Assembly (NCBI RefSeq): GCF_003382685.1
Contig: NZ_QLVG01000061.1
Location: 1 to 33,509, forward strand
Source: Halorussus litoreus
Lineage (GTDB): Archaea > Halobacteriota > Halobacteria > Halobacteriales > Haladaptataceae
Length of the DNA: 33,509 bases
Direction of reading: 5' to 3'
Part shown: positions 5,675-27,443 of the stretch, piece by piece
How positions within the stretch are numbered: the first letter of the stretch is position 1
Layout of the letters: each line of letters begins with the position of its first letter
The notes under the pieces: generated by a model
Database searches by the model: none
What the model saw: only the letters and a program-made list of their open reading frames with translations
What the model was told of the DNA's origin: nothing
Translations under genes and position numbers: made by a program

Positions 5675-6200
5675 GTGGCGGTAACGATTCCGGTGTCGTC
5701 CCGACTCGGAGTTGCGGTTGGTGGTGTGGTGGCGGTCGCGGTGACGGGTGCGGTCGCAGTGGCGGTAGCGGATGCGGTCGCAGTGGCGGTAGCGGGTGCG
5801 GTCGCGGTCCCCGAGGTTCAAGCAGTAGTAGCCGTCGCAGTTGCGGTAGCGGGTGCGGTCGCGGTTACGGATGCGGTTCGCATAGGCTCAACGATACTGG
5901 CGGCCACGGTTGTTGCTGTTACAGTGCCGGAGCCGAACGCGATCGTGGTTCACTGCACCGGCGAAAATACACCATTCGTGACAGCGACCGCTTCTATCGT
6001 TGAGCAAAGGAGAACCCCGACCGCAACCGCCTTCGCTACAGCAACCGCGACCGCAGCCGCTTTCGCTCCAACAACCGCACCTGCAGCCGCCTCCGCTACA
6101 GCAACCGCTACTATTCTTGAGCATATGAGAACCGCACCCGCGACAGCGACGGCAACCGCGACGGCACCCGCATCTGCACCAGCAACCACCTCGACATTTC
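5675..6200. repeat. Giant nested palindromic repeat, locus 1 (GCGGTN / NACCGC hexamer arms)
   Basis: The left half (about 5712-5880) is made of GCGGTN-type hexamers such as gcggtcgcggtgacgggtgcgg. The right half (about 6010-6190) consists of their complements (accgcaaccgcc, acagcaaccgcgaccgc). Two short inverted repeats punctuate the arms symmetrically. The inner pair is gctcaacgata (5886-5896) with tatcgttgagc (5995-6005). The outer pair is ggttcaagcagtagtag (5815-5831) with ctactattcttgagc (6107-6121), one base shorter. The whole could fold into a hairpin of roughly 500 bases. It fills the gap between the stop of the PHP gene (6207) and the promoter of dgcN (5661-5670). The open frame through it would encode Val-Ala then Thr-Ala repeats and looks spurious. 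Confidence 0.85.
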
Positions 6201-23030: not shown

Positions 23031-23924
23031 TCACTTCTCTTTGAGGTTCAGGCACGCGAGTGCGGCGAACATCGCTTCTTCGGTTCGCACGACCTCGCTG
23101 CCTTGATTCGGAACCGCGTTCATCCAGAGGTCGAACCGGCTGGGTGCGCCGGATTCGACTCGGGACTCCGCGTCCGCCTCGTCCCTCGATTCGTCGTCGC
23201 TCGGCCACGCGCGGTCGAGCGAGTCGGTCGAGCGGTCGAGTATCTCCGGCAGCCCGCGACCCGGTGAACCGAACGCGACAGTCATGCCGTCGCGTTCGAT
23301 GCGGCCGACCGCGTCGGTCAGCCGCCGAGTCGTCAGCTCGACCCCGTGGCGGGACGTCGCGATTCGGACGCCCGCATCGTCGCGGTCGAGTGCCGCCGGG
23401 AGGTCCGCGCGCGTCACCGACAAGCCCGGAAGGGGCTCGTCTACGAGCTTCGCGCGGACCGGACTTCGCGAAGAGATCCTGACGGTAACGCGCTCCCCCT
23501 CGTCGACCGCCATTGCCGGCGGGGTGACGAGGGAGATCGGGTGTTGCAGTCCGCAATTGACCCGAACGCGCCCTTCAGGTCCGACCTCGGTCACGATTCC
23601 CTGTCTTATCGACCCCGAACCCTCGGATTCGGAGCCGGTCAGCGACGGGGCGCGGAGCGGCGGTAGGACGCCGACGTACTCCAGTTCGTCCCGCACGCCG
23701 AAGGCCTCCTTTCGGAGGTACGGCGGCGTCGCGGCGTATTCCAGCACTGTGCTGACGAACCCGCCACCCCACTTCCGCTCGCCGTCGGGGTCCGGAAAGA
23801 CCACGAGGCGGTCGGCCCGGAAGACGATCGCCGCGCGTGCGACGTAGCCGAGCTTGCGAGTCGCCTCGCGTTTGTCCTCGGCTTCCCGGACGAGGGATGA
23901 CGGAACGAGTACGCTGACAGTCAT
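23031..23924 (-). CDS. SPOUT-superfamily RNA methyltransferase (archaeal COG2106 / Methyltrn_RNA_3 type)
   Basis: 297 residues. The N-terminal VSVLVPSSLVREAEDKREAT and KLGYVARAAIVFRADRLVVF begin the SPOUT knot. An OB-like insertion lies around LPPLRAPSLTGSESEGSGSI and IRQGIVTEVGPEGRVRVNCG. The knot closes with TVAFGSPGRGLPEIL and a C-terminal FDLWMNAVPNQGSEVVRTEE AdoMet-binding segment. Eukaryotic relatives are SPOUT1/C9orf114; archaeal members are annotated as putative RNA uridine N3 methyltransferases, and the target base in this organism is unknown. It is the first gene after the promoter at 23981-23990 and commonly precedes rpl3 in archaea, so rRNA is a reasonable guess for the substrate. 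Confidence 0.85.
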   Translation of the reverse strand: MTVSVLVPSSLVREAEDKREATRKLGYVARAAIVFRADRLVVFPDPDGERKWGGGFVSTVLEYAATPPYLRKEAFGVRDELEYVGVLPPLRAPSLTGSESEGSGSIRQGIVTEVGPEGRVRVNCGLQHPISLVTPPAMAVDEGERVTVRISSRSPVRAKLVDEPLPGLSVTRADLPAALDRDDAGVRIATSRHGVELTTRRLTDAVGRIERDGMTVAFGSPGRGLPEILDRSTDSLDRAWPSDDESRDEADAESRVESGAPSRFDLWMNAVPNQGSEVVRTEEAMFAALACLNLKEK

Positions 23925-24134: not shown

Positions 24135-24205
24135 GCGCCGGTAGTGTAGTGGTATCACGTGACCTTGCCATGGTCGCAACCCGAGTTCAAATCTCGGCCG
24201 GCGCA
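24135..24205 (+). tRNA. tRNA-Gly (anticodon GCC)
   Basis: The cloverleaf folds completely. Acceptor stem is gcgccgg with ccggcgc and discriminator A. The D arm is gtgt...cac, the anticodon stem tgacc/ggtcg closes the loop ttgccat, and the T stem is ccgag/ctcgg around ttcaaat. The anticodon is GCC, reading GGC/GGU. CCA is not encoded. A T-run (ttttt, 24206-24210) follows directly as terminator. No intron is present. Confidence 0.96.
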
Positions 24206-25461: not shown

Positions 25462-26175
25462 ATGACCGACGCGACCGACCCCCGCGACGACCTCGCCGAG
25501 CGCATCGCGGGCGAGATAACCCTCAGCGACGACCCGGGCGCGACGCTCCGCAAGTGGCGGACCGACTTCGGCGTCACCCAGACCGAACTCGCCGACCACC
25601 TCGACGTGTCGTCGTCGGTCGTCAGTGACTACGAGTCGGGCCGTCGGGAGAGCCCCGGCATCGGCGTGGTGGCCCGAATCGTGAACGGCCTGCTCGACAT
25701 CGACCAGCGCCGCGGCGGCGACCGCATCCGTCAGTACGCCCGGGTGCTGTCGGCGGGCTTCGAGAGCGACATCGTCAACGACCTCAGGGAGTACCCCACC
25801 GCAGTCGGACTCGACCGGTTCTACGACGCAGTGGGCGCGACCGAACTCGCGAGTAGCGACCACGACCACGTCACCGGCCACACCGTCATCGACAGCATCC
25901 AGGCCATCACGCGCCTCTCCAGCGAGGAGTTCTACCGACTGTACGGCCAGAGCACGAGCAGGGCGCTGATGTTCACCAACGTCACCCGTGGGGAGTCGCC
26001 GCTCGTGGCGATGCGCGTGGTGAACCCCACGCCGAACGCGGTGGTGCTCCACGGGCTGGACGAGGCCAACCTCTGGGAGCACGCGCCGAAGATGGCCCAA
26101 CTGGACGGCTTCTCGCTCGCGATTACGGACGACCCGCTGGACGACGTGCTGGAGTCGCTTGGCGACCTGCCCTGA
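25462..26175 (+). CDS. Archaeal HTH (XRE-type) transcriptional regulator, COG1709-like
   Basis: 237 residues. The helix-turn-helix lies at about residues 33-85: LRKWRTDFGVTQTELADHLD, then VSSSVVSDYESGRRESPGIG. The C-terminal ~140 residues (FYDAVGATEL..., VIDSIQAITRLSSEEFYRLY, TSRALMFTNVTRGESPLVAM) form a domain seen in archaeal COG1709-type regulators that may bind a ligand. The target genes are unknown. The ATG at 25462 begins just before the conserved region; the longer frame from 25435 adds only nine residues. A large palindromic repeat starts about 8 bp after its stop. Confidence 0.8.
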   Translation: MTDATDPRDDLAERIAGEITLSDDPGATLRKWRTDFGVTQTELADHLDVSSSVVSDYESGRRESPGIGVVARIVNGLLDIDQRRGGDRIRQYARVLSAGFESDIVNDLREYPTAVGLDRFYDAVGATELASSDHDHVTGHTVIDSIQAITRLSSEEFYRLYGQSTSRALMFTNVTRGESPLVAMRVVNPTPNAVVLHGLDEANLWEHAPKMAQLDGFSLAITDDPLDDVLESLGDLP

Positions 26176-26179
26176 GGCG

Positions 26180-26562
26180 TGAGTGGTTCGCGGTGGCGGT
26201 CGCTGTTGCGGTGTGGTGGCGGTCGTGGTAGCGGTGGCGTGGCAGTCGCTGTTGCGGTGTGGTGGCGATCGCTGTTGCGGTGTGGTAGCGGTGGCGTGGC
26301 AGTCGCGGTGCGGTCAATCCTAGGCTCAAGCAGTAGCTAGGTCACGCGTTCGTTCTCTTCTGGTTCGAGAAGGTCCAATTCGAGAACGCTAGCTATCGCT
26401 TGAACCTAGGATTGACCGCAGCACCACAGCACAGCCACTGCACCGCAACCGCATAGCACCGCTACCGTCACTGCACCGCTACCGTCACTGCACCGCAACC
26501 GCATAGCACCGCTACCGCTACGGCACCGCTACCGCCACGCCACCGCTACCACACCACCGGTC
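26180..26562. repeat. Giant palindromic repeat, locus 2 (GCGGTN / NACCGC hexamer arms)
   Basis: The left arm (26184-26313) consists of gcggtggcggtcgctgttgc-type words with an internal period of about 57 bp (gtggtagcggtggcgtggca at 26225 and 26282). The right arm (26412-26560) is made of the complements (caccgctaccgtcactgcac) with a period of about 50 bp. The core is a 32-bp inverted repeat (26309-26340 with 26389-26420), identical at 29 of 32 positions. It encloses a loop that has its own 7-bp stem (cgttctc 26351-26357 / gagaacg 26382-26388). Both strands lack a plausible gene. It separates the stop of the HTH regulator from the promoter of the TrmB gene. Confidence 0.9.
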
Positions 26563-26630: not shown

Positions 26631-27443
26631 ATGGCTACTCTGCGAGACCTCGGGTTGTCGGAGTACGAGGCCCGAGCGTACCGTTCGCTGCTCGACGCGG
26701 GGCCGACCACGGCCAAGGAGCTGTCGCGGGCGAGCGACGTGCCGATGGGTCGGATCTACGACGTGCTGAGCAGTCTGGAGACCCACAGCCTCGCGCGCTC
26801 CCAGAGCGCGAGCCGTCCGAAGAAGTACGTCGCGGTCGAGCCCGACACCGCGCTGAATCGCCTGCTCGACGACAAACTGGCCGAACTGGAGGAGCAGGCC
26901 GAGCAGTACGAGGCCATCGTCGACGACCTCACCGAGGAGCTCGACGCGGCCGAGCCGGTCGAGGAGGGCTTCTGGACCGCCGCCGTGGGCCCCGAGGAGT
27001 CCGTCGACCTGCTGGTCGAGCGCCTCGACGCCGCCGACGACCGCATCGTGATGGTGGCCGGGGAGGCCAGCGCCCAGTTCGACATCGGCGACGTGGGCGA
27101 GCTCGTGGCCGAGCACCTCGAAGCCGCGCTCGATCGCGGGGTCGAGGTGTCGCTGCTGATGTCGCCCGAACTCGTCGACACCCTCCCGGCGAGCGTGGGC
27201 GAACGCTACACCGAGACGCTCGCCGACCACCCGTCCTTTGCGGTCCGGACCGCCAAGAGCCTCCAGGGGACGTTCAACCTCATCGACGACGTGGAAGTGT
27301 GCATCGAGGTTGCGAACCCGCTGAACCCCGGCGGCGCGTTCGCCATGATCGACATGAAGGACCCCGAGTTCGCGGCCGACGCGCTCGAGGAGTTCGCGCC
27401 CCGGTGGGAGACGGCCGAACCACTCGCCATCGGACGGCCGTGA
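26631..27443 (+). CDS. TrmB-family transcriptional regulator
   Basis: 270 residues. The N-terminal winged helix-turn-helix has the TrmB pattern LGLSEYEARAYRSLLDAGPT, TAKELSRASDVPMGRIYDVL and LETHSLARSQSASRPKKYVA. A coiled-coil helix (ALNRLLDDKLAELEEQAEQY) follows and leads to a C-terminal sensor domain (ESVDLLVERLDAADDRIVMV, VAEHLEAALDRGVEVSLLMS, FAMIDMKDPEFAADALEEFA). TrmB proteins often control sugar or central carbon metabolism, but no sugar gene is adjacent, so targets are unknown. It is followed on the same strand, 89 bp later, by trkA. Confidence 0.88.
   Translation: MATLRDLGLSEYEARAYRSLLDAGPTTAKELSRASDVPMGRIYDVLSSLETHSLARSQSASRPKKYVAVEPDTALNRLLDDKLAELEEQAEQYEAIVDDLTEELDAAEPVEEGFWTAAVGPEESVDLLVERLDAADDRIVMVAGEASAQFDIGDVGELVAEHLEAALDRGVEVSLLMSPELVDTLPASVGERYTETLADHPSFAVRTAKSLQGTFNLIDDVEVCIEVANPLNPGGAFAMIDMKDPEFAADALEEFAPRWETAEPLAIGRP

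Follow-up and report, generated by a model that had tools for sequence, protein, structure and literature searches.

A dispersed family of inverted 33-nucleotide arm pairs between genes of Halorussus

A palindrome between two regulator genes

The window analyzed here, a 33,509-nucleotide stretch of Halorussus litoreus DNA, carries a large palindrome at 26180-26562, in the intergenic space between an HTH regulator gene that ends at 26175 and a TrmB-like gene that starts at 26631 (both names are our reading of the genes). Between 26190 and 26546, the sequence is 69% identical to its own reverse complement. At its center, the left core at 26309-26340 (TGCGGTCAATCCTAGGCTCAAGCAGTAGCTAG) and the reverse complement of the right core at 26389-26420 (TGCGGTCAATCCTAGGTTCAAGCGATAGCTAG) are identical at 29 of 32 positions, and ungapped self-complementarity across the 112-bp core reaches 68%, as compared with a mean of 45% and a maximum of 58% among 200 shuffles. 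A sequence-only reading of the window had described a 32-bp core with three ungapped mismatches and an inner 7-bp stem, and both are present, the stem being formed by CGTTCTC (26351-26357) and GAGAACG (26382-26388).

The core is enclosed by GC-rich hexamer arms, which, as that reading had stated, are tandem repeats. The left arm (26183-26308, + strand) begins directly after the stop codon of the upstream HTH gene (26173-26175), where GAGGCGTGAG (26175-26184) looks like an outer-block remnant, and ends with TGC immediately before the core; the right arm (26421-26562, - strand) is inverted relative to the left. The 50-57-bp period attributed to both arms is clear in the right one, which repeats with a period of 50 over 26434-26550, but not in the left one, which repeats with a period of 23 over 26192-26292 and for which TRF returns periods of 23 and 28.

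Aligned with the repeat family to which it belongs, the core resolves into two 33-nt arms of one motif (family consensus GGTCACKCCTAGGCTCAAGCAGTAGCTAGCTTC), the left at 26312-26344 (+; position-weight matrix (PWM) score 43.6) and the right, inverted, at 26385-26417 (-; PWM score 38.2). They are separated by a variable center of 40 nt (26345-26384; family mode 32) that holds the 7-bp stem, which is private to this copy and whose last bases extend into the right arm. With a total length of 106 bp, the window copy is atypical, as it is devoid of the outer hairpin blocks that are present at most other copies and are missing around 26421-26562. A second palindromic region of the window, locus 1 (5700-6190), is a degenerate relative: within hexamer repeats at 5804-6134, a weak arm at 5804-5836 (>) faces another at 6102-6134 (<), and their scores of 0.4 and -3.6 are the window's second-best arm match on each strand. 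Elsewhere in the window, Rfam identifies an L4-Archaeoglobi ribosomal-protein leader (23479-23578, - strand, 79 bits) and a tRNA (24135-24205, + strand).

The HTH and TrmB-like genes that flank the palindrome are apart in all 17 congeners compared, lying ~110-315 kb or more from one another (for example, ~282 kb in genome G003, 280 kb in G014, and 314 kb in G016) or on different contigs; because they are adjacent in none of these relatives, there is no empty site with which the window locus can be compared. In the fetched stretches of the 17 congeners, no paired copy lies beside the orthologues of the flanking genes; near them we found a weak arm in G010 and, upstream of the HTH gene, a single arm in G001, a genome inferred to be Halorussus halobius HD8-83. 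In the H. litoreus genome (G000), a solitary arm lies beside the gene that in G001 comes next after the HTH gene, which is suggestive. The palindrome could be a rearrangement scar or an assembly chimera, that is, the junction of two distant segments joined by recombination between two copies or by the assembler, and the separation of the flanking genes, the displaced neighbor, and the division of the G000 assembly into 75 contigs all favor such an origin. We nevertheless consider it unlikely, as it leaves the 78 other paired copies of the genome unexplained and as several gene boundaries between 24200 and 33500 show breaks of synteny with congeners, most of them free of any repeat, which makes the break at the palindrome unremarkable and is also why we do not emphasize a rearrangement hotspot.

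Anatomy and distribution of the repeat family

The earlier reading had taken the core for a repeat with further copies and had named their absence as part of what would refute it; the H. litoreus genome contains many. A search with the core returned 48 matches at E≤0.001, a family model built from 34 aligned copies gave 148 two-strand hits, and a position-weight scan of fetched stretches located 79 paired cores. Single arms, counted genome-wide with a 19-position arm pattern allowing up to three mismatches, number 226, whereas the reversed control gives 5. G001, the closest relative that is rich in copies, holds ~65 of them and the partial genome G011 gives 25 two-strand matches, while the remaining congeners give 0-13 each, counts that are too low wherever the arm consensus differs between species (as in G016), since the model was made mainly from G000. 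The model found no match in 10 genomes from two other genera of the same family, and among 292 genomes from the class, a strict inner motif occurs in just two, each a Halorussus, so the core is nearly confined to this genus. The exact core pattern was not found in IMG/VR, and its three matches to bacterial MAGs in a search of genome contigs were taken as chance. The pattern of the outer blocks occurs in 16 copies in G035, from another family of the order, and almost nowhere in other families. The repeat family is real and apparently undescribed, as we found no description of a Halorussus inverted-pair family in the open-access literature; it is of practical use for marking Halorussus strains and may contribute to the broken state of Halorussus assemblies.

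The modal paired unit is 98 bp long and consists of a 33-nt arm, a center of ~32 nt, and an inverted 33-nt arm. Information content is 1-2 bits in most columns of the arms, as compared with 0.1-0.4 bit for most columns of the center. Arm positions 4-18 take few forms per species and AGTAGCTAGCTTC is nearly fixed; the arm consensus itself varies between species, as G016 exemplifies. The arm includes a GTAG (AGTAGCTAGC), the tetranucleotide that in REPs marks the foot of a short hairpin. Hexamer arms of the kind seen in the window (GCGGTNGC, GCTGTGCGG) surround many other copies, and most other copies have hexamer runs outside the 33-nt arms followed by GAGGGACGAG..GGCTGGGGAGG blocks with small hairpins. 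A coding function was rejected, given that our reading of the consensus arm meets a stop in every frame, and CRISPR-like acquisition of the centers as spacers was likewise rejected, given that the centers form mutating lineages.

Where two arms are neighbors, they usually point toward each other (90 of 103 cases). The great majority of these inward pairs (82) are spaced 22-64 bp apart, and the other 8 are spaced 478-995 bp apart, most of them enclosing a gene. At loci L176, L183, L205, and L038, a single gene lies between inward-facing arms 600-1000 bp apart; inspection of the genes enclosed by the 8 distant pairs, such as those at L176 and L183, revealed no obvious transposase. Solitary arms, which lack a partner, are common and include arms with full outer blocks. 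At L214, the outer side of a solitary arm at 2991 consists of a G run followed by a C run and looks like an assembly artefact.

Copies almost always lie between genes (120 of the 121 examined in two genomes, with G000 represented by its fetched stretches), in tandem (57), convergent (37, 31%), or divergent (24, 20%) contexts. They are also rich in CTAG, a motif that carries m4C methylation in haloarchaea (PMC5867850): the cores of G000 contain 166 CTAGs in 7.65 kb, as compared with 98 in 263 kb outside them, a ~58-fold higher density, and 4 of the 11 CTAGs in the window fall inside the core of the 26180-26562 palindrome.

Copying, shared junctions and possible folding

Several groups of copies located at unrelated sites, among differing genes, have centers that match one another at 80-91%. 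Homology between such copies runs through the outer blocks and then stops; in the clearest near-identical pair it ends near CGGCGCG/CGCGCCG. As judged from these sequences, near-identical centers at unrelated sites show real copying events by which the sequence spreads. Among 36 recent-copy pairs, mean divergence is 0.18 in the arms and 0.23 in the centers, while random copy pairs differ by 0.29 in the arms and 0.51 in the centers. The arms thus drift much like the center after copying, but off-consensus arms are lost in the long term, a pattern that fits selection during multiplication. The arms may therefore limit which copies multiply rather than enjoy strong protection after insertion, though slow purifying selection may also act.

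A different picture emerges at shared positions. A strict script identified nine gene junctions that are occupied by a copy in both G000 and G001, and visual inspection added more; the intergenic DNA at these junctions no longer aligns. The arms of these copies score nearly normally (78 vs 82), which suggests maintenance or overwriting in place, and orthologous copies are no more alike than random ones, either in the arms (0.67 vs 0.67) or in the centers (0.44 vs 0.44). Old shared sites that carry renewed sequence suggest that existing copies may be overwritten by ectopic gene conversion or may be targets of re-insertion.

These junctions bear directly on the main rival to a mobile repeat, namely that the arms, with their near-palindromic GWAGCTAGCTWC, are putative binding sites for a host protein that are kept by selection, whether for chromosome organization, insulation of neighboring genes, or control linked to CTAG methylation. 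Occupation of the same junctions in two species despite the loss of alignment around them fits a host-used site, and the intact state of solitary arms and the CTAG enrichment of the cores, given the m4C motif in haloarchaea (PMC5867850), point the same way. The sites are, however, nearly absent from most congeners, have no fixed gene context, and diverge in their arms about as fast as in their centers after copying, and orthologous copies show no special resemblance. On balance, we regard a host-site role as possible but doubtful.

Arm-arm pairing occurs in 74.4% of cells within copies and in 74.7% with shuffled partners (34 copies), and, as the arms do not covary, there is no sign of selection for arm pairing within a copy. 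The suggestion that the two halves are alike through arm-to-arm copying consequently fails as a general cause, because both arms fit the family-wide 33-nt consensus and show no covariation in the 34 copies; part of it survives for the window copy, where some local exchange is possible, since both arms share a rare A at position 6 that is found in ~3% of family arms. The lack of arm covariation also led us to reject an RNA hairpin, and assignment to an Rfam family was rejected as the element has no match. A structured RNA, or a transcription terminator that works in both directions by means of an RNA hairpin, would suit inverted repeats that lie between genes and in 31% of cases between convergent ones, but arm-arm covariation and an Rfam match are both lacking and a fifth of the copies lie between divergent genes, which leaves this the least probable of the explanations considered, and a very improbable one.

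The outer blocks behave otherwise. In 57 blocks of one type, the two triplets that flank the small hairpin are complementary at their outer positions, the first and the third, in 108 of 114 cells; the expected number is 36.7, and none of 2000 shuffles exceeded 57, though this control ignores relatedness among blocks. The covarying triplets include TAG/CAA, CAT/AAG, GAC/GAC, and GAG/CAC, with a middle A-A mismatch that is mostly fixed. The hairpins, of which those at L176 (642-700), L011, and L016 are examples, often have C-GNA-G loops, and GNA loops occur in 17 of the 29 blocks with a clear triloop stem. Loops of this type form very stable DNA mini-hairpins such as GCGAAGC. The triplet complementarity and the GNA loops together hint that the outer blocks fold as DNA.

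A candidate mechanism and comparison with known elements

Taken as a whole, the evidence leads us to favor, with modest confidence, a dispersed DNA repeat of Halorussus that is non-autonomous and most likely mobile. Its replicating or recognized part would be the inverted pair of 33-nt arms (GGTNNCNCNTNNGCNNNNGC followed by AGTAGCTAGCTTC, the latter a near-dyad GWAGCTAGCTWC), placed face to face around a spacer whose length is nearly fixed and whose sequence is free, within nested GC-rich inverted blocks. An enzyme acting in trans would copy the unit, recognizing its arms probably as a pair or else in extruded or single-stranded form; alternatively, ectopic gene conversion may keep overwriting old sites. 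By either route, the spacer would drift between lineages and the arms would be kept at the family consensus. Against mobility stand the nine or more junctions shared by two species, more than would be expected of free jumping, and the solitary arms, whose conservation equals that of paired arms (mean identity 0.754 vs 0.715), though the solitary set was chosen partly for few mismatches and its value is biased upward. No candidate for the mobilizing enzyme was found. RAYT/IS200-type mobilization was rejected for the present genome, as PF01797 is absent from it while the Haloferax volcanii control was positive; the domain is also absent from G001 and G016, and its past loss is possible. A more speculative variant, to which we give somewhat less weight than to host binding sites, is that more than 200 directional half-sites, each composed of outer hairpins, hexamers, and a 33-nt GCTAGC arm, are read singly or as inward pairs by a host or DNA-processing protein in archaea that lack a RAYT, which would represent either a new form of miniature-repeat transposition or a CTAG-marked chromosome-organizing system.

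The closest anatomical match to the Halorussus repeat is found in bacterial REPINs, inverted REP doublets that RAYT Y1 transposases mobilize. They are defined by inverted ends around a less conserved spacer that keeps its length, by extragenic locations, and by accompanying singlets (PMC3116915, PMC8049555); REP doublets of ~71-110 bp have been modelled (PMC3116915). The Halorussus family shares with REPINs and BIMEs its inverted conserved ends, kept spacer length (98-bp mode), short size, extragenic location, tens to hundreds of copies, and singlets. It differs in the absence of PF01797, in arms of 33 nt without a demonstrated self-hairpin, in its nested outer hairpin blocks, and in its archaeal host. 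In contrast to REPINs, moreover, its singlets are not more diverged than its doublets, with the upward bias noted above, and its arms lack compensatory changes. The family is thus REPIN-like in form but falls short of being one, and we do not give it that name because Y1/RAYT is missing from G000, G001, and G016, its solitary arms are not decayed, and its arms show no compensatory changes. E. coli strains that have no RAYT nevertheless retain REPINs (PMC8049555). Populations of REPIN-like repeats are familiar from bacteria that possess a domesticated transposase dedicated to them; if an archaeal population does multiply without a RAYT, the inverted-pair design would have arisen again, and another enzyme would be implied.

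Among haloarchaeal elements, the nearest kind is the SMRs of Haloquadratum walsbyi, which are short and transposase-free, make no target duplication, have inverted ends unrelated to known transposons, and are mobilized in a manner that is unknown (PMC3119063). The Halorussus repeat is likewise short, in fact too short to code, but, as compared by description, SMRs are highly conserved in sequence between copies, whereas the center of the Halorussus repeat is free. With MITEs the family shares a non-coding nature, inverted ends, and dispersal, and it differs from them in that the inside is not conserved and in that inspection of the arm pairs that hold a gene revealed no partner transposon with matching ends. 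Foldback elements possess long inverted arms made of short tandem repeats. The tandem hexamer arms of the Halorussus repeat are not its constant part, which instead comprises the 33-nt arms near the center.
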